A stretch of DNA of 50,389 nucleotides from a virus, in IMG/VR virus record IMGVR_UViG_3300023099_000003, positions 1-50,389 of that record; one strand, 5' to 3'. Positions within the stretch are counted from its first letter, which is position 1, and each line of letters starts with the position of its first letter. The notes under the pieces were generated by a model, which had not been told where the DNA came from, ran no database searches, and saw nothing but the letters and a program-made list of their open reading frames with translations. Both the position numbers and the translations under genes were made by a program. Below are positions 2,101-10,760 of this stretch, piece by piece.

Positions 2101-2240
2101 TTGACCTCTCCCGTCTCGACAGCGGCAAATCCGGCAGTCACAGGGTCCATCATGGCGACAACTGTAATGAACGCCAGCACGATTGCGATAATCGTCCATA
2201 CATTGTCAGCGGCGTGATCGTTGCTGAACTTACTCACCAT
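2097..2240 (-). CDS. Small single-pass membrane protein, 47 aa
   Basis: ATG 2240 lies inside the end of the previous gene (11-nt overlap) and the stop overlaps the next start as ATGA. Residues 15-31 are a continuous hydrophobic helix (W-T-I-I-A-I-V-L-A-F-I-T-V-V-A-M-M), preceded by a polar N-terminus. Single-pass peptides like this in early phage operons often act on the host membrane, but nothing here shows what it does. Confidence 0.6.
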   Translation of the reverse strand: MVSKFSNDHAADNVWTIIAIVLAFITVVAMMDPVTAGFAAVETGEVK

Positions 2241-2391
2241 CCCACTCCTTCATCAATTTGTCCCACTTGGCCTCGCCCATTTCCTTGCGGGCACTGGCGA
2301 CCTTACGTTCCAGGCTGTTATCCGGTGCCCATTCAGGATTCCATTCCTGCGATGGCGCGGTGCCTTTTAGTTTCTGGGCGTAGAGGTTCAT
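2230..2391 (-). CDS. Hypothetical protein, 53 aa
   Basis: The start at ATG 2391 is chosen because it makes a TGATG stop-start overlap with the preceding gene; a start 27 nt further upstream is open but would overlap more. The product is Lys/Glu/Trp-rich and probably helical. No family recognised. Confidence 0.65.
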   Translation of the reverse strand: MNLYAQKLKGTAPSQEWNPEWAPDNSLERKVASARKEMGEAKWDKLMKEWDGE

Positions 2392-2663
2392 CAAACCAAC
2401 TCCCCAAGTGCGGACCAAGCCGCTGCGATATATTCTTCGCGGTATTCCTCAAAATGCCGCACCAGCCAGCCATCTTCCCAAGCGGACAGCAAATAACCGC
2501 CAGCTACGGAAGGTGCTTTCGCCTGCTCCATGGCGCGGTAAAGATGTGTGTGGGCGGCGATTGAAAGGAAATAATCGCGCGCTTCAGGCTTCATGGCCTC
2601 AAACTCTACGCGCTCCCGATCTGAAAGCGTGAATGGCGAATTATAGAAACGTGGATCAATCAT
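2391..2663 (-). CDS. Hypothetical protein, 90 aa, first gene of leftward operon
   Basis: ATG 2663 is preferred over ATG 2675 because GGAG lies 6 nt before it, whereas 2675 sits only about 12 nt after the predicted -10 box and has no Shine-Dalgarno. The product is acidic and helical with many aromatic residues. A W-E-D-G-W segment and the surrounding Ala/Glu helices resemble small phage proteins of unknown role. As the promoter-proximal gene of the operon that runs through the junction to 48706, it is likely expressed early. Confidence 0.75.
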   Translation of the reverse strand: MIDPRFYNSPFTLSDRERVEFEAMKPEARDYFLSIAAHTHLYRAMEQAKAPSVAGGYLLSAWEDGWLVRHFEEYREEYIAAAWSALGELV

Positions 2664-2714
2664 GTCATTCTCCATCTGACCGCCCCATAATACCTAACCC
2701 CGATAGATGTGCAA
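2664..2714 (-). promoter_or_regulatory. Leftward promoter and GATGGAGAAT leader
   Basis: Read on the minus strand: TTGCAC at 2714-2709, a 16-nt spacer, then TATTAT at 2692-2687, close to a sigma70-type promoter. GATGGAGAAT and the start codon at 2663 follow. The leader matches the accessory-gene leaders at 18.6, 28.4, 31.0 and 34.5 kb. Confidence 0.6.
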
Positions 2715-2727
2715 TATCTTTTTTGCC

Positions 2728-2757
2728 TTGAATAGTAAAAAAGTTTGTGCCTATATG
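2728..2757 (+). promoter_or_regulatory. Rightward promoter for HTH gene
   Basis: TTGAAT (2728-2733), an 18-nt AT-rich spacer and TATATG (2752-2757), followed by GAGGAG just before ATG 2780. It is divergent from the leftward promoter about 15 bases away, so the 2664-2779 region is a natural operator area for the HTH protein. Confidence 0.5.
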
Positions 2758-2779
2758 GTGGCGCATTAGAGGAGTGAAA

Positions 2780-2986
2780 ATGCCGACACCTGAAGAAATC
2801 CGAAGCCGCGCGTTTGAAGCGCGCATTTCGATCAATCGCCTTCTGGCCGATGCCAATGTGGCCGCCCAAACTATCTGGCGATGGGAGAGGAAAGTCAAAA
2901 CCCCTCGTCAATCCACCATAGACAAGGTGATGGCCGCGCTGGTGGCCGCCGAAGCCAAGGAGTCAGAAAGATGCACTACGCGATAG
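2780..2986 (+). CDS. Cro/XRE-like helix-turn-helix protein, 68 aa
   Basis: ATG 2780 follows a GAGGAG Shine-Dalgarno. Residues 15-50 fit a helix-turn-helix of the Cro/XRE kind: I-N-R-L-L, a turn, A-A-Q-T-I-W-R-W-E-R as recognition helix, then T-I-D-K-V-M-A-A-L as the trailing helix. It is the first rightward gene opposite the left operon, so it may bind the shared 2664-2779 region and repress one or both promoters. It is shorter than a CI repressor and has no cleavage or dimer domain, so Cro-like is the better label. Confidence 0.75.
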   Translation: MPTPEEIRSRAFEARISINRLLADANVAAQTIWRWERKVKTPRQSTIDKVMAALVAAEAKESERCTTR

Positions 2987-3090
2987 GAGTTATTGGCTTT
3001 TGTATCTTTTGCTGCCTGGTGCTGGGATGGATCGCCTATCTAGCGCCCGAAGGCTATGAGGATGACGATGGATGGCATCCTGACGAGTAA
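2971..3090 (+). CDS. Small membrane protein, 39 aa
   Basis: ATG 2971 lies inside the end of the HTH gene (16-nt overlap). Residues 4-22 form a hydrophobic helix rich in Ile, Phe, Cys and Leu; the C-terminal third is acidic (E-D-D-D-G-W-H-P-D-E). Predicted single-pass protein with an acidic tail. Function unknown. Confidence 0.6.
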   Translation: MHYAIGVIGFCIFCCLVLGWIAYLAPEGYEDDDGWHPDE

Positions 3091-3113
3091 CCCCTAACTG
3101 ATGGAACTATAAC

Positions 3114-3761
3114 ATGGCTTCTCAGCCCTCATACTCTCGCCACCGTCGCATGGTGGCGGGCCAACAACCTGTCAGTAGTGACATATCCAATGATACCCCG
3201 CCAATCTATGCGCGCCGTCTAGCGGGGTATATTCGCGACCCAAGCACTATCCGTGTTCGGGTTCTGGAAAGATATGGGCATTGCCCGCCGCGTGAAGTGA
3301 TTGTGCGAATGCTGGACGATCAGGCGCGGGCCACTGGCAAGCCTTGGAATTTCCTGCAGAAGCGGGAACATGATCACTTGTTTTCCGGCGTCCATCGCAA
3401 GTTGCCGCCGACTGTGGTTGTGCCTGACCCAGACCCGGAACTAACTCCAATGGGGCGCGCCCATCGGACGGCCAAGGATATGATTGCCGAAGCTGCCGGC
3501 GCGTTTGGGTTGACCTATGCTGATATTGTCGCACCTGGCGGCAAGGCGCGGATCAAGCGCGTTCGGTTCATGCTGGCCCAGCTGATGGTGGATCGTGGCA
3601 ACAGTCGCTCGCAAGTGGCCCACTGGCTTGGCAGAACATGCCATTCGACTGTCTGCCATGCCATGAAGGTGTTCCCGCGCATGTTGCAGGATCACCCCGA
3701 CATAGCCCGCGCCTACGCGCACTTCCGTAAAGAATGGGGGATTGATGATGCTGCAGGATAA
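3114..3761 (+). CDS. DnaA domain IV-like DNA-binding protein, 215 aa
   Basis: The C-terminal half (about residues 118-205) resembles the DNA-binding domain IV of DnaA: a helix leading to an R-I-K-R-V-R-F-M-L-A-Q-L-M segment, then an S-Q-V-A-H-W-L-G-R helix and C-H-S-T-V-C-H-A. The last matches the R-D-H-S-T-V-x-H-A signature of DnaA. There is no AAA+ ATPase region, so it cannot be a full initiator. The N-terminal 90 residues carry another HTH-like segment and a basic patch. It could help initiate phage replication, perhaps at the iteron region at 18.1 kb, act as a transcription factor, or interfere with host DnaA boxes. The domain call is fairly strong; the role is inference. Confidence 0.7.
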   Translation: MASQPSYSRHRRMVAGQQPVSSDISNDTPPIYARRLAGYIRDPSTIRVRVLERYGHCPPREVIVRMLDDQARATGKPWNFLQKREHDHLFSGVHRKLPPTVVVPDPDPELTPMGRAHRTAKDMIAEAAGAFGLTYADIVAPGGKARIKRVRFMLAQLMVDRGNSRSQVAHWLGRTCHSTVCHAMKVFPRMLQDHPDIARAYAHFRKEWGIDDAAG

Positions 3762-3948: not shown

Positions 3949-4349
3949 AAGGGCGGCTGGGACTGCAGCCCCAGCCAATGCTCGAAGGCCAGTGCGAAAC
4001 CTGTAGCGCCATAAGCCACGCAGGCAAATCCGCCCACATCAGACACATTATTGAGATAAGAAATTTGCTCCGGCGATAGCCTGGCTGACCTTGATAGCGA
4101 TTTAAGTTCACAAGACATACTAGGGCAGCCGTCAATTTTTACATCGGCTGCCCCCTTCACGAATCCGCCTTGAACCTTGATTCGCCGCATAGCCTGAGCA
4201 GTTGCTGCTCGGTCCTCGTTGCGAATGTGCACGGCGACAGCCCAGTATTTAGGATATTCGCGGCGAAGCCAGTTAAAGGCGCTCGCCATTTCTACTTCTT
4301 CGCTTGCCTGCTTGCCTGGAAGCTGTTCGCCGAAAACGGAATAGGTCAT
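3945..4349 (-). CDS. VRR-NUC-type nuclease, 134 aa
   Basis: Residues 65-97 carry the signature of the small virus-type replication-repair nucleases: K-G-A-A-D-V (D69), C-E-L-K (E81, K83) and L-S-P-E-Q (Q95), the D...E-x-K pattern of PD-(D/E)xK enzymes. The length suits stand-alone phage VRR-NUC proteins, which cut branched or flap DNA. It overlaps the end of the helicase gene by 4 nt, so nuclease and helicase are coupled and probably act together on forked DNA. It is the last gene of the leftward replication operon. Confidence 0.8.
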   Translation of the reverse strand: MTYSVFGEQLPGKQASEEVEMASAFNWLRREYPKYWAVAVHIRNEDRAATAQAMRRIKVQGGFVKGAADVKIDGCPSMSCELKSLSRSARLSPEQISYLNNVSDVGGFACVAYGATGFALAFEHWLGLQSQPPF

Positions 4350-6184
4350 GCGTATTTCCTGAGTTTGGCGGTTTCAGCCATTACCTTGTCGGGCAAATCT
4401 TCATCATCGGCGGGCTTGCCAAATGCGATAATCCGATAGAATGAACTATCAGGATCGCGGGCGTAGCTCACAGTATCAGGCGTCCCGTGCCGTGTGGCCT
4501 CTGTGAATTTTGCCAACTCCGATGCCTGCCTTGTGTTTTTCGGGTCTTTCATGAACCAGCAGGAAAATTGCCGGTATGGAGTCACGAAATCAGCGCGGAT
4601 TGTTGCATTCCCTTTTTGAGAAACGCTCTCTCTCCAGTCGAGTGACAAAATACGGTCGGTCTGCGGAAATGTAGGATCTTTCTTTTGCGCGACGAACTGC
4701 GTTATTAGGGCGTCATTCGGATCTACCACCTGGCAACCACAGTGCGCGCACTCGCGGGCGGATATATCCAGTGCCTCGCCACACTGTGGGCAAGGCTTGG
4801 AGTTGTAGCGCATATTGCAGCGGACATACTCCCCGCGCGATCCAGAGCGTACCATTCCAAAGCATCGGCGGCCGTAGTGACTGGCAACAGGACCATGGTC
4901 TGACATTAGGACGTTTCCGAAAACGTCTAGGCAGTAACCCGCCTTGTCGCGCGGGTAGTCCGCATAATCTGGTTGCAATGTAAATTCGTTCACATAGCCG
5001 CAGTCGGGACATTCCGCCTCTATTGGCTCGCCTGGTCCCTTGTTGCTCTTGGCTCGCACAATAGGCTTGAACAAATCCCCATCGGGGCAATGCTTGTCCA
5101 GATTGCCAGCAAAGTCGAGAATGAGGCAATCAGTTTTCCCATCATCCAAGCGCAAGCCCCGCCCGATGCATTGCTGCAGCAACCCTGCAGACTCTGTCCT
5201 GCGCAACATCGCGATCACATCGACATGGGCGCAATCCCATCCGGTTGTGAGAACGGAGACGTTGACGATATATTTGATTTTGCGCTGCTCAAAACGCTTA
5301 AGGACTGATCCGCGATCCTCTGTGCCGCCATGCACCATGGCCGACAATTCAGGGGGCAGGCTTGCAAGAATTTCTTCGGCATGGCGGATAGTGGCGGCGA
5401 AAAAGACAACGCCCTTCCTGTCTTGCGCTTGGGCGACAACATCAGCGACGATCGCGCTGGTCTTTTTCCCGTGCCCGATGAAAGCCGCATCCACACTGGC
5501 GACATCGAATTGTCCGTTGGGGCGCATCACTAGCCCGCTGGTGTCATAGCCGCTGACATTGATTGCGCCAATTACTGGCGGCGTGAGATATCCTTGCTCG
5601 ATCAGATAGCGAGCGTCTATGCTGTAAACACATTTGGTAAAGAACGGATCGCGGCAAACGTCATCATCGTTTACGCGGTCATCGGGGCCGATACGGTATA
5701 TAAAGCCCCTGCCGAGTTTGAACGGCGTGGCCGAGAGGCCCACGACACGCAGGTTCGGATTGGCCTGCTTCATTTCCTCTAGGATCGCCAACACCGTTGG
5801 TGCGATCGTGTGAGCTTCGTCCAAAACCACGCCGCAATAATCACCGCGAGTGAAGCGGGAGATTGATCGGGATACGGTTCCAGGTGTGGCGAATACGATA
5901 TTATGCCGAGTGGATTTGACGCCCGCACTGGCTGAAAAGATTGAGCATGGATGACCGGTCGCGGTCATCTTGGAAGCGTTTTGCAGAGTCAATTCTTTTT
6001 GAGGGGCCAGGCACAGAACGCGTTTACCGCCTGATATATCATGTAGCCAATCGGCCAGCGCAGCCACCACATGACTTTTACCCGAGCCAGTGGGGGCTTC
6101 TATAAGGCAAGGCTCCACACTGGCTTTCAGCCAATCCTTTGCTGCATCAACCGCGTTTTGCTGGTAGTCACGAAGTTCAGACAT
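4346..6184 (-). CDS. SF2 DEAD/DEAH-box helicase, 612 aa
   Basis: Start ATG 6184 has GGGAG 7 nt upstream; ATG 6190 is too close to it. An early L-R-D-Y-Q-Q-N Q-motif, Walker A G-S-G-K-S (33-37), D-E-A-H (122-125), a following S-A-T and a later Q-x-x-G-R-G-x-R motif make this a superfamily 2 ATP-dependent helicase with both RecA-like lobes. The C-terminal third holds several C-x2-C pairs, likely one or two zinc ribbons for DNA contact. Phage helicases of this build assist replication or recombination. Gene order with the VRR-NUC nuclease supports a fork-processing pair. Confidence 0.92.
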   Translation of the reverse strand: MSELRDYQQNAVDAAKDWLKASVEPCLIEAPTGSGKSHVVAALADWLHDISGGKRVLCLAPQKELTLQNASKMTATGHPCSIFSASAGVKSTRHNIVFATPGTVSRSISRFTRGDYCGVVLDEAHTIAPTVLAILEEMKQANPNLRVVGLSATPFKLGRGFIYRIGPDDRVNDDDVCRDPFFTKCVYSIDARYLIEQGYLTPPVIGAINVSGYDTSGLVMRPNGQFDVASVDAAFIGHGKKTSAIVADVVAQAQDRKGVVFFAATIRHAEEILASLPPELSAMVHGGTEDRGSVLKRFEQRKIKYIVNVSVLTTGWDCAHVDVIAMLRRTESAGLLQQCIGRGLRLDDGKTDCLILDFAGNLDKHCPDGDLFKPIVRAKSNKGPGEPIEAECPDCGYVNEFTLQPDYADYPRDKAGYCLDVFGNVLMSDHGPVASHYGRRCFGMVRSGSRGEYVRCNMRYNSKPCPQCGEALDISARECAHCGCQVVDPNDALITQFVAQKKDPTFPQTDRILSLDWRESVSQKGNATIRADFVTPYRQFSCWFMKDPKNTRQASELAKFTEATRHGTPDTVSYARDPDSSFYRIIAFGKPADDEDLPDKVMAETAKLRKYA

Positions 6185-7034: not shown

Positions 7035-8942
7035 TCACAGCGAAAACAACCCATCCTCAGGAAGGTCGCCTGCCTTTTTGGTGGCGATGATCTTGCGCTT
7101 CATGGCGTTGCTGCGCGGCGCAAGTTTCATGCGCTCGCGAATGTCGTCTGCATATTCCACTTCGCGCTCAATCAGGATACAACGGAATCCCTCGCGCCAT
7201 GCCGCTTCGCCAGTGCTGCCACTGCCTGCGAATGGGTCCAACACGATGCCCCCCGGCGGCGTTATGAGGCGGCAAAGGTATTGCATCAGGTCCACCGGCT
7301 TGACGGTAGGATGCTTGGAGCCGATGCGGTCCAGGCTGTCGGCTTTGGCCGAGTAGAAGAAACGGGCGGCGGTGCCGCCGTTGTCGTCAACACCACGGAT
7401 TGTGTCCGTGCCTTCTTTTATGTTGCCGCCAATGTCTGCAAGGCCGCCATGCCTTCCGCTGTGCTGCTTCCCGCGATTACCAGCCTTGCTTGGCCCCGTA
7501 TCAGGAAACCCCACCACAACTTCATCGCTACCATCGTGGATTACGTTTGCGGGGAACCTTCCAATAGCGGTCGTTGGCCCGGCGTCCTCACGCCACCCCC
7601 CGCCCATCGCCACTCGCTCATTAATAGAGCCGGGAGGATTGATGCGAACCTCATCCCCAACTCGACACCCATCCACATTAATCGCACCCGTCCCATGCTC
7701 CAGAACATTGCCCGCCACAGTCCCTTTGAATGGCTTGCGCGCGAGCACCCATGGCTCTACGGCGGGTTTTAGAGCCGTTCCGTAACCCTCTGGCACCACC
7801 GGTTTGCTACACCTATTACAAACCGGCCAGCCTCCCCACGCTTGTGGTCCGCGTTTGTCGGCCACAACTCCAAGTTGTCCGGGTGATTGTTTGCCGGATT
7901 GTGGTCCTTGTGATGAACCACCTCTATCCGCGTCAGCAGGAATCCGCACACCCTCGCCATCACCAAACGGTGCTCCATGATGTATCCGTCCTTCCGGGAC
8001 ATCGGGATCGCCCAATCCGGCGCTCTCACATGCCGAACGCCCGTATAATTTCCTTGTGCCCGCTTGAGCGTCACCCCGCCCTTCCATGCTGGATTTTTTT
8101 CCATCCGCATGTCGGGTTTCTTTTTGCGAGATGCTGGCCCCTTGTGACCGTGCCTCGCCCACTCCGCTCCCCGTACAACTCCGTTGCATTGCTTCGAGCA
8201 CATCGGCTGCTTGCCCCGTGCCATGTGCCTCGCATTCCGCCAGAACGTTACTCCGCACACTGTGCATTGAGCCGACGCCATCCCCGGAAGTTGCGAAGGG
8301 TGCTTCTTGACGCCCGCCTTCTTTGCGGAAATCAGTTTGCCCGCACACGCCCGACTGCACGTCGTGTTGCGCGTCGCCTGATAGCGCGTCGTTGGCGTCC
8401 AGTCCGAGTCGCAAATCGCGCAGGTTTTTGTCTGAAACATAGTGACCTGATACAATGGTTTTATGGCATAGACAAGCGAGGCCGCTATCTTTTAACTTCT
8501 TGACGATGTTGTGGGATTTCGGGAATCCGCTCGCATACACCCACATGATGCAGTCTCTAATCTCAAACCCAGCATCCTCAATCGCCACAGCCAGCCGGTG
8601 ATAAGTCCGCGTCCCTGATGCGGCAATCACATGGCCCCCCGGCTTCAGCACACGCATGACTTCGGCCCAGAACGTTACCGCAAACGCTGTTTCGCCAGTG
8701 TCCCATTGCTTGCCCATAAAGCCGGCTGAGGCGCGGGAATAAACATCGCCGTCCTTTGTCGGTGCCGCGCCTTCCGCGCCAAACCGTTTGACGATAGAGA
8801 CAAGCGCATAAGGCGGATCGGTCACAACGGAATCCACACTGGCATCAGGCAGGCCCTTCAGCACGTCGCGGCTATCGCCGTTGAACAGCATGACTTTGCC
8901 ATCCAAATGCAGTTCGCCGCCAAAGTCAGAAAAATCAGTCAT
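7035..8942 (-). CDS. Beta-class DNA N4/N6 amino-methyltransferase, 635 aa
   Basis: Methylates the amino group of adenine or cytosine in DNA using AdoMet. Motif IV D-P-P-Y is at residues 42-45, followed by V-L-K-P-G-G-H. Motif I (L-D-P-F-A-G-S-G-S-T) is at about 568-577, and H-P-T-V-K-P-V-D-L-M lies before it. The order IV...I marks the beta class. The region between, where target recognition lies, is unusually long. Residues about 168-391 are a low-complexity, Gly/Ser/Asp-rich stretch that is simply the other-frame reading of the nested HNH gene (7769-8440); C-L-C-H before it and C-N-R-C after it could pair as a zinc site. The frame stays open throughout. It sits in an operon with a C5-methyltransferase, likely anti-restriction. 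Confidence 0.9.
   Translation of the reverse strand: MTDFSDFGGELHLDGKVMLFNGDSRDVLKGLPDASVDSVVTDPPYALVSIVKRFGAEGAAPTKDGDVYSRASAGFMGKQWDTGETAFAVTFWAEVMRVLKPGGHVIAASGTRTYHRLAVAIEDAGFEIRDCIMWVYASGFPKSHNIVKKLKDSGLACLCHKTIVSGHYVSDKNLRDLRLGLDANDALSGDAQHDVQSGVCGQTDFRKEGGRQEAPFATSGDGVGSMHSVRSNVLAECEAHGTGQAADVLEAMQRSCTGSGVGEARSQGASISQKETRHADGKKSSMEGRGDAQAGTRKLYGRSACESAGLGDPDVPEGRIHHGAPFGDGEGVRIPADADRGGSSQGPQSGKQSPGQLGVVADKRGPQAWGGWPVCNRCSKPVVPEGYGTALKPAVEPWVLARKPFKGTVAGNVLEHGTGAINVDGCRVGDEVRINPPGSINERVAMGGGWREDAGPTTAIGRFPANVIHDGSDEVVVGFPDTGPSKAGNRGKQHSGRHGGLADIGGNIKEGTDTIRGVDDNGGTAARFFYSAKADSLDRIGSKHPTVKPVDLMQYLCRLITPPGGIVLDPFAGSGSTGEAAWREGFRCILIEREVEYADDIRERMKLAPRSNAMKRKIIATKKAGDLPEDGLFSL
7769..8440 (-). 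CDS. HNH endonuclease nested in +1 frame of methyltransferase, 223 aa
   Basis: Lies wholly inside the amino-methyltransferase gene, same strand, shifted by one base. ATG 8440 is preferred over an upstream TTG at 8455; only a weak CAGG precedes it. Visible are two Cys pairs near the start (C-A-I-C ... C-S-R-A-C), another set (C-T-V-C ... C-S-K-Q-C), and the HNH core G-Y-I-M-E-H-R-L-V-M-A, V-V-H-H-K-D-H-N, H-P-D-N-L-E-L-W. This is the usual layout of phage HNH endonucleases, so chance is very unlikely. It ends at the conserved G-T-A-L-K-P-A segment of the methyltransferase. Whether both frames are translated is unknown. Confidence 0.8.
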   Translation of the reverse strand: MFQTKTCAICDSDWTPTTRYQATRNTTCSRACAGKLISAKKAGVKKHPSQLPGMASAQCTVCGVTFWRNARHMARGKQPMCSKQCNGVVRGAEWARHGHKGPASRKKKPDMRMEKNPAWKGGVTLKRAQGNYTGVRHVRAPDWAIPMSRKDGYIMEHRLVMARVCGFLLTRIEVVHHKDHNPANNHPDNLELWPTNADHKRGEAGRFVIGVANRWCQRVTERL

Positions 8943-8967: not shown

Positions 8968-9873
8968 TCACCGGCTTATTGCATTTGGGGGTGGCGGGGT
9001 CAAGGATTGGAGGATTGCTCGTCCAATAAGTTCGGGGATTTGGGGGATGACGGCGTTTCCACAGCATCCAACTCTGTCCACCCAATCGGGAATCCCATCA
9101 CGGCTTCCGCGAAAGAGGGGTGGAGGTATATCGGATCTTCCTCGCAAATCCTCAGCCCTTCGGACATTTTGGCACCACGAAAATGCGGAGATCCCCGAAA
9201 CCTTTTCTTCGATGACCCTTTTGGCTCCTGCTTTCCCGGTGTAGGCAGAAACAACCGCTTGACCGCTGCGGGGAATCCATTCCGCTCGTTGCTTATGTCG
9301 AAATTTCCCCTCTTCTGGCTGTCGTTCTTGCGCGGGGTAGGCAACAATCCATACACGCTCGCGACGATGGGGAGCGCCCATGGTTCCTGCCGGAATGTTT
9401 TCCCATTCCGCATCATACCCGCATTCGGCCAGGTCCCCAAGAACTCGGCCAAACCATCCCCCTGGCCGCTCAGCTGGTCCAGAAAGGAGATTTGCGACGT
9501 TCTCCACGATGATGAACTGTGGTCGTAGCTCGCCAGTAAGTCGGACGATTTCAGACCAAAGTCCGCTACGGGTTCCGCTTCCAAGGCCAGCCTGTTTTCC
9601 AGCTGTGCTAATGTCCTGGCACGGGAATCCCCCGGTGATGACATCGACCTGTCCAACGTCATCCCGAACAAGTTGTCTGCCTGTGAGGGTTCTGACGTCT
9701 CGATAGCAGGGCACGTCTGGCCAGTGTTTGGCGAGGACTTTACGGGGGAACTCTTCGATTTCACAGAAGGCGGCAGTTTCGAAGCCTGTGTATTCACCAT
9801 GTCCAGTCGCCCTTTCAAGGCCAAGGGAAAATCCTCCAATACCACTAAAAAGGTCCAATACACGGAGCTTCAC
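8968..9873 (-). CDS. C5-cytosine DNA methyltransferase, 301 aa
   Basis: The GTG start at 9873 makes a GTGA overlap with the exonuclease stop; a TTG at 9885 is possible but uncoupled. Motif I D-L-F-S-G-I-G-G-F-S-L-G-L-E (from residue 7), motif IV G-G-F-P-C-Q-D-I-S with catalytic Cys near residue 85, motif VI V-E-N-V-A, motif VIII R-R-E-R-V-W-I-V-A and motif X G-N-A-V-I-P-Q-I-P near the C-terminus are all present, so the enzyme looks complete. It transfers methyl from AdoMet to carbon 5 of cytosine. It probably masks phage DNA from host restriction. A long second reading frame overprints almost the whole gene (see 9000-9863). Confidence 0.95.
   Translation of the reverse strand: MKLRVLDLFSGIGGFSLGLERATGHGEYTGFETAAFCEIEEFPRKVLAKHWPDVPCYRDVRTLTGRQLVRDDVGQVDVITGGFPCQDISTAGKQAGLGSGTRSGLWSEIVRLTGELRPQFIIVENVANLLSGPAERPGGWFGRVLGDLAECGYDAEWENIPAGTMGAPHRRERVWIVAYPAQERQPEEGKFRHKQRAEWIPRSGQAVVSAYTGKAGAKRVIEEKVSGISAFSWCQNVRRAEDLRGRSDIPPPLFRGSRDGIPDWVDRVGCCGNAVIPQIPELIGRAILQSLTPPPPNAISR
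9000..9863 (-). CDS. Overprinted ORF in +1 frame of C5-methyltransferase, up to 287 aa
   Basis: Open for 287 codons on the same strand as the methyltransferase, one base out of phase. A GTG at 9863 opens it. An internal ATG at 9644 (214 aa) is a likelier start, because from there the protein has features I remember from stand-alone phage hypothetical proteins near dcm genes: an S-P-x-D-x-x-A-R-T stretch, L-L-A-S-Y-D then S-S-S-S-W-R-T-S-Q, W-P-N-A-G-M-M-R-N-G, L-L-P-T-P, and M-G-F-P-I-G-W-T-E-L near the end. The A-R-T stretch is the other frame of motif IV and the G-W-T end is the other frame of motif X. Function unknown. Translation is not proven. Confidence 0.5.
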   Translation of the reverse strand: MYWTFLVVLEDFPLALKGRLDMVNTQASKLPPSVKSKSSPVKSSPNTGQTCPAIETSEPSQADNLFGMTLDRSMSSPGDSRARTLAQLENRLALEAEPVADFGLKSSDLLASYDHSSSSWRTSQISFLDQLSGQGDGLAEFLGTWPNAGMMRNGKTFRQEPWALPIVASVYGLLPTPRKNDSQKRGNFDISNERNGFPAAVKRLFLPTPGKQEPKGSSKKRFRGSPHFRGAKMSEGLRICEEDPIYLHPSFAEAVMGFPIGWTELDAVETPSSPKSPNLLDEQSSNP

Positions 9874-10760
9874 CGCAACCCCCAACTCTCGGACGGTTTG
9901 CCCCTGTAGGGTTCCAGATCCACCTTAGGCGCATGATCAGCCACAACCTTGGCATAGGCCACGCTGCCCTGTCTTTGGGTAAGCGTTAATTTACGCCCAC
10001 CAAACTCCGCGTTACGCTCACCCGCCATCTTCACCATATCAGACAGAAGGTCGGCCTTGCGTTCCTTGATCCGCTCTTCCTGCTCCTTAAGGTCATCCCA
10101 CTCCTTGACCATCCGCGCGGCGGCGGGGGTATCGATTGCTATCCGCTTGGGGGCAAGGTAGTCCTCTGGGTCGGCTAGGGCGTCTTGGTATTCAGCCCAA
10201 AACTGCCTCAATTTAGGCAAGTTTTCATTCAGCCATTCATGGTCAATCGGCACCCGGTCGCAGGTCGTTTCCTTGGCAGACCACTGGTAAAACCATGCGT
10301 GTTCGACGCCAGCACACAGCATCTCGATCTGAAGCTGCGCATAGTATTGCGGCTGATCTTCGAGCTTCTTGATTGGCGGCTCTTTACCAGCCTTATCGCC
10401 ATATCGCTTGCGGCGCGAGTATGGGGCCTTGATTTCGCACACGCCGCCATCGCTGGTAAAGCCATCAGGCGATGCCCCCAGCCATGTATCATAGGGCAGG
10501 AATGGGGCTGGATTGACCGTCAGGCCGGTTTCCATCTGGAATTCGATTGTCGCCCCATCCTCGTTATTGCGGCCATATTCGATGGCGATATTATCTTCCA
10601 TCTCGCTTTCCGCGCCCAAGGCATCACGCACCATGCGGCGCAACACATCCGCACGTTTCTTGTTTGGGTCCAGGTTCAGGATTGCGCCGGCCACTGAGCC
10701 GGTCACGCGGCCAATCCGGGCTTTATACCATTCGGGGGAGCGTTGTTCAGGGTCAGACAT
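9870..10760 (-). CDS. YqaJ-like (lambda-type) exonuclease, 296 aa
   Basis: ATG 10760 has GGAG 6 nt upstream and overlaps the previous gene by 8 nt. R-S-P-E-W-Y-K-A-R-I-G-R-V-T-G-S (from residue 7), E-x-x-A-T-I-E-F..T-G, G-A-S-P-D-G (95-100) and C-E-I-K-A-P (E109, K111) follow the YqaJ/RecB-like nuclease pattern of lambda Exo relatives. These resect dsDNA 5' ends for single-strand annealing recombination. A charged helical tail (about 215-260) is extra. With the SSB-like and RecA-like genes upstream it forms a phage recombination set. Confidence 0.9.
   Translation of the reverse strand: MSDPEQRSPEWYKARIGRVTGSVAGAILNLDPNKKRADVLRRMVRDALGAESEMEDNIAIEYGRNNEDGATIEFQMETGLTVNPAPFLPYDTWLGASPDGFTSDGGVCEIKAPYSRRKRYGDKAGKEPPIKKLEDQPQYYAQLQIEMLCAGVEHAWFYQWSAKETTCDRVPIDHEWLNENLPKLRQFWAEYQDALADPEDYLAPKRIAIDTPAAARMVKEWDDLKEQEERIKERKADLLSDMVKMAGERNAEFGGRKLTLTQRQGSVAYAKVVADHAPKVDLEPYRGKPSESWGLR

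Follow-up and report, generated by a model that had tools for sequence, protein, structure and literature searches.

A phage cytosine-C5 DNA methyltransferase probably encoded as two subunits in overlapping frames of one DNA stretch

M.EcoHK31I (YGGCCR) is a cytosine-C5 DNA methyltransferase made of two polypeptides, and its small gene lies inside the large gene in another reading frame. M.HhaI and other single-chain C5-methyltransferases have all motifs in one chain. According to PMC3404938, the large subunit of M.EcoHK31I comprises motifs I-VIII and X and the small subunit only motif IX, the predicted target-recognition domain is placed in the large subunit, and M.AquI is given as a C5-methyltransferase split into two polypeptides. 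The locus described here differs from M.EcoHK31I in being a phage locus, and on comparative sequence grounds it very probably specifies both subunits of a cytosine-C5 DNA methyltransferase in a single stretch of DNA. A full-text search of the open-licence literature returned no report, among the titles and abstracts listed, of nested C5-methyltransferase genes in phages; blastn of E. coli genomes for a relative gave no match, and an Rfam search yielded no lead.

The DNA analyzed (the window) spans 50,389 nucleotides, positions 1 to 50,389 of the IMG/VR virus record IMGVR_UViG_3300023099_000003, and also contains terminase, portal, and tape-measure genes. At positions 8968-9885 (minus strand) it encodes a dcm-like C5-cytosine methyltransferase of 305 amino acids, referred to as alpha, that matched phrog_363 (E 6.1e-79) and PF00145 (E 3.2e-40), the latter over residues 8-200 only. 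Motifs I, IV (PCQ), VI (ENV), VIII, and X are present in this order, as in C5-methyltransferases; motif IX, sought between the target-recognition domain and motif X of the same chain, is missing from alpha and is found in the +1 frame. As described in an earlier sequence-only reading, this second frame is open over 287 codons (GTG, 9000-9863, minus strand) across the dcm-like gene. It matched phrog_1008 (E 6.5e-17), whose annotation 'DNA methyltransferase' is silent on a second-frame subunit, and 53 phage records by tblastn, so that the annotated phage relatives mentioned in that reading do exist; a Pfam search with the product of the window gave no match. A translated-looking and conserved frame, of a family seen in annotated phages, supports the view that it encodes a real protein, the putative beta chain. 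When the synonymous codons of the host gene were shuffled 10,000 times, the +1 frame reached 287 codons or more in 0.32% of the trials, and 214 codons or more, the length of the version from ATG 9644 whose start codon is indeed present, in 5.5%. The window alone is only suggestive, and it is the comparative data that decide.

The last conserved block of beta is LHPSFAEAVMGFPIGWT (9075-9125, minus strand), which represents motif IX. The sequence-only reading had seen shadows of methyltransferase motifs in the second frame. For ART this was right, as it lies opposite PCQDIS of motif IV, and the tail VETPSSPKSPNLL likewise lies opposite motif X (GNAVIPQIPELIG, 9022-9060, minus strand) of the alpha frame. 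MGFPIGWT, however, is no shadow of motif X; it faces the alpha residues DGIPDWVDR further upstream and is itself motif IX. Among 230 unique loci, with one locus per identical alpha, 212 have motif IX in the +1 frame; of these, motif X lies in the alpha ORF in 196 and in the ORF that carries IX in 3, and its position was not determined in 13. Motif IX belongs to the alpha frame in 5 loci, 4 of which also have X, and to another frame in 2; in 11 loci no motif IX was found. The corresponding block lies just upstream of motif X, within the methyltransferase frame, in four single-chain relatives, namely L196 from a Candidatus Megaera plasmid and three viral contigs (L284-L286). In the profile of these relatives it aligns with M.HhaI residues 269-316 (motif IX-X); the score of 9.4 bits is weak alone, but the piece is collinear with a strong match and counts for that reason. 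The single chains possibly represent a fusion or the ancestral state. L196 (1447-2469) is a single chain, yet part of its second frame matches the beta profile.

Three actinobacterial relatives (L003, L008, and L197) have an alpha that ends after motif VIII and a second frame that carries both IX and X; in L008 and L197 the C-terminus of beta matches the C-terminal portion of phrog_116, which is a family of full methyltransferases. These loci, located at 2302-3304, 2173-3520, and 1252-2863, respectively, derive from actinobacterial phages and a plasmid and have an M.AquI-like layout. Two further loci are noted for their frames. A Paenibacillus polymyxa plasmid (L198, 1405-2937) has a methyltransferase gene whose second frame contains a motif-IX-like sequence twice, along with several PTP repeats, and in a Kordiimonas MAG (L191, about 4230-4540) the two frames swap places midway, which may reflect an indel, decay of the gene, or a fault in the assembly.

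The conservation of the open second frame was determined in relatives fetched either by the second frame or by the host frame, giving 143 unique rows once identical cores had been merged and 7 loci, in which the alpha ORF lacks an aligned motif X, had been left out. From motif IV to X, the second frame was open in 83 of the 97 loci of the second-frame sample versus 2.7 expected from synonymous shuffles, and in 36 of the 46 host-frame loci not contained in the other sample versus 1.3 expected, whereas over the same core the +2 frame was open in 0/143. Stops appearing freely among relatives had been named as the refuting result and were not found: in 66 of the 71 host-frame loci having both motifs (71 used out of 80 alpha-first loci), no second-frame stop occurred from motif IV until 12 codons before motif X. 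Over motifs IV-VIII the second frame was open in 135/142 (142 of the 143 rows kept; 11.1 expected). Conversely, frame 0 under the second-frame domain between VIII and IX was open in 141/141 versus 22.6 expected from the reverse shuffle, a count (141 of the 143 rows) that is partly selected by the choice of loci through the omission of those 7. A valid negative control came from ordinary bacterial C5-methyltransferases, E. coli dcm among them (21 of 31 kept, 10 having no PCQ match); their second frame was open over IV-VIII in 2/21, one of which belongs to the same family, and contained a mean of 3.4 stops versus 3.6 after shuffling.

Codon-position divergence revealed which frame is selected where. 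Position 1 of the frame-0 codon is the wobble position of the +1 frame. In 91 pairs, which like the loci are related by descent, divergence at frame-0 positions 1/2/3 was.108/.069/.376 before motif IV,.136/.069/.230 from IV to VIII,.346/.191/.171 from VIII to IX, and.167/.112/.408 at motif X. Among 67 disjoint pairs, position 3 exceeded position 1 in 67/67 before motif IV; from VIII to IX position 1 exceeded position 3 in 57 of 62 informative pairs, with the reverse in 5 (the remaining 5 were tied or too short); at motif X position 3 again exceeded position 1 in 61, with the reverse in 2. Frame-0 third positions from IV to VIII were less divergent than those upstream in 58/66 disjoint pairs. 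The window behaves alike: versus its 10 nearest relatives (11 were named, one of them outside the set), frame-0 positions 1/2/3 between VIII and IX differ by.361/.155/.119, the wobble of beta. The selected frame therefore switches along the gene, from frame 0 before motif IV to both frames in IV-VIII, the second frame in VIII-IX, and back to frame 0 at motif X. Downstream of motif VIII it is the second frame that rules, with frame 0 as a passenger, since the wobble there falls on frame-0 position 1. In the window, the dual-coding stretch, where alpha motifs IV-VIII lie over the N-terminal half of beta and both frames constrain the sequence as seen from third-position divergence and second-frame openness, extends over 9334-9625 (minus strand). 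The predicted target-recognition stretch of beta (LLPTP...KGSSKKRFRGSPHFRGAKMSEGLR) follows at 9126-9333 (minus strand), where frame 0 encodes an unconserved alpha linker.

The proposal that an orphan family had been born by overprinting a methyltransferase is thus not supported; only the N-terminal half of the second frame (IV-VIII) looks overprinted. The C-terminal half appears to be a displaced piece of the methyltransferase, because the second frame is selected there and carries motif IX, which in the rare single-chain relatives is in frame 0.

AlphaFold2 modeling of alpha gave a confident catalytic domain matching M.HhaI (Foldseek E 3.1e-12), and both the predicted fold and the motif order are those of single-chain C5-methyltransferases, with the difference that the latter have all motifs in one chain. 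The linker comprising alpha residues 187-245, where the second frame is selected, had a pLDDT of only about 30. The model of beta alone was weak (pLDDT 64), and Foldseek found nothing for it below E 1e-3. In a set of beta sequences composed of 121 of 127 references plus the window, 122/122 members matched phrog_1008 and 1/122 had a marginal match in Pfam; the profile built from this set matched no chain in the PDB.

The start of beta is recurrent in many relatives. An ATG 26 codons before the PCQ shadow was present in 60/143 loci and preceded by a Shine-Dalgarno (SD)-like stretch in 48 of the 60, much more often than the other listed ATG positions. The SD stretch at -26 is encoded by the Pro-Glu-Val (PEV) codons of alpha, the Glu codon being GAG in 61/63 compared with 40% GAG over all Glu codons of these genes. 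In the window, this common -26 start with SD is absent. There, a purine-rich stretch at normal spacing (AAAGGG, 9 nt upstream; candidate SD at 9810-9815, minus strand) precedes just one ATG of the frame, ATG 9800, which is preferred for this reason; ATG 9662 and ATG 9644, which would give shorter versions, have no SD-like stretch upstream. Beta of the window thus most likely starts at ATG 9800 and would comprise 266 amino acids (9000-9800, minus strand).

A second class was found in Gram-positive phage methyltransferases (L203-L283, an E. faecalis plasmid and viral contigs), which had been fetched as a canonical negative control and were treated separately after a nested frame of their own had been detected. 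They contain a nested +1 gene ending in SLSDILEENVPEKYFLS with its own start and SD, and 60 of the 81 loci were kept as unique. The +1 frame was open over IV-VIII in 59/60 versus 0.34 expected. The nested ATG was at -24 in 39 loci and at -25 in 13, with an SD in 39/39 and 13/13, respectively, and a beta-type wobble spans approximately the first 24 codons after motif VIII. Motif IX was mostly in frame 0 in this set, and motifs I to X were in one ORF in 59/64. The nested copy of L203 matched phrog_16143 (E 4e-47) and, in a separate search, 135 phage records. As the nested frame stands beside a complete alpha in these phages, a nested protein need not exist in order to carry motif IX. Taken as a whole, phage C5-methyltransferases probably carry a nested partner widely, with its start and ribosome-binding site written in alpha codons about 25 before motif IV. 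In the class of the window, the DNA-recognizing half would be encoded in the other frame, recognition and catalysis being overlapping genes, and the Gram-positive class would keep a full alpha plus the nested gene.

The locus is best explained by a two-subunit enzyme. Alpha (frame 0) would provide the AdoMet-binding and catalytic domain with motifs I, IV including the PCQ cysteine, VI, and VIII, followed by the unconserved linker and the closing motif X. Beta, read in the +1 frame from a start within the alpha gene, would contribute the target-recognition stretch, and with it presumably the specificity, as well as motif IX, which in the window occurs in beta only. Both chains are predicted to be expressed and to form a joint enzyme with the layout of M.HhaI, neither being active alone. 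A second frame that was a mere shadow of a strongly conserved gene and gave no protein is scarcely tenable and largely refuted. Conserved motifs do shape such a shadow, the beta profile even matches the second frame of the canonical methyltransferase L203 (E 2e-14), and shuffling the window by itself leaves the core open in about 5% of trials; yet stops are avoided, the wobble after motif VIII is of the beta type, codon choice in alpha favors the SD, and unrelated C5-methyltransferases show just the expected number of stops. A chance shadow was rejected by the synonymous shuffles, the unrelated controls, and the wobble pattern.

A single long chain produced by programmed ribosomal frameshifting at two sites, into the +1 frame after motif VIII and into frame 0 once more ahead of X, would fit the switch of the selected frame from 0 to +1 to 0 and the existence of single-chain relatives. 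It is nevertheless very unlikely, as such a chain has no need of three features that are all kept: the second frame ahead of the shift, open over IV-VIII in 135/142 versus 11.1 expected; the internal start with its SD; and frame 0 beneath the target-recognition stretch, open in 141/141 versus 22.6 expected. Programmed frameshifting was disfavored on these three observations. Equally improbable is a beta that acts as a separate regulator or anti-defence protein merely sitting over the methyltransferase. The nested frame of the Gram-positive relatives despite a complete alpha speaks for it, as do the missing Pfam match of the window's beta and the marginal one in 1/122 relatives, but in the window motif IX is in beta and missing from alpha, and in the three actinobacterial relatives, whose alpha ends after VIII, the second frame carries IX as well as X.

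The two-subunit enzyme proposed for the window resembles M.EcoHK31I in that motifs I-VIII and X are in the large chain and IX is in the small one. It differs from it in the target-recognition domain, predicted in the published account to be in the large subunit, whereas here the conserved VIII-IX stretch is in beta and the alpha linker is unconserved with low pLDDT. With M.AquI it shares the distribution of a C5-methyltransferase over two polypeptides; the small subunit of M.AquI, however, has motifs IX and X, whereas motif X is in alpha here, and the M.AquI layout is that of L003, L008, and L197. By all comparative signs, the second frame would encode a conserved, overlapping subunit of a two-chain C5-methyltransferase, a variant of a known arrangement that is spread more widely than the single known laboratory case suggests.

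The neighboring gene shows another out-of-frame arrangement. An HNH endonuclease (7769-8455, minus strand; PF13392, phrog_20891) is located out of frame inside an N6/N4 methyltransferase gene (7035-8942, minus strand), which reads through the HNH stretch without stops. Caulobacter phage DMCA matches this methyltransferase in two pieces covering 56% of the query. A search for uninterrupted copies of it in the fetched loci gave no lead. The arrangement resembles 'ShiLan', described as a hidden homing HNH element of phage methylases (PMC11855218).

Frame sharing of this kind, a long same-strand overlap that is conserved over many phages and in which selection acts on each frame by turns, is rare and testable. 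Many of the phage records analyzed here have only alpha annotated; such methyltransferases could therefore be cloned without a subunit and look dead. The comparison also suggests that the published placement of target recognition in the large subunit of M.EcoHK31I merits re-examination. Phage methyltransferases usually protect against host restriction, and for this reason the enzyme most likely methylates phage DNA against the restriction systems of the host. Phage DNA modification of this kind bears on host range and counter-defence.
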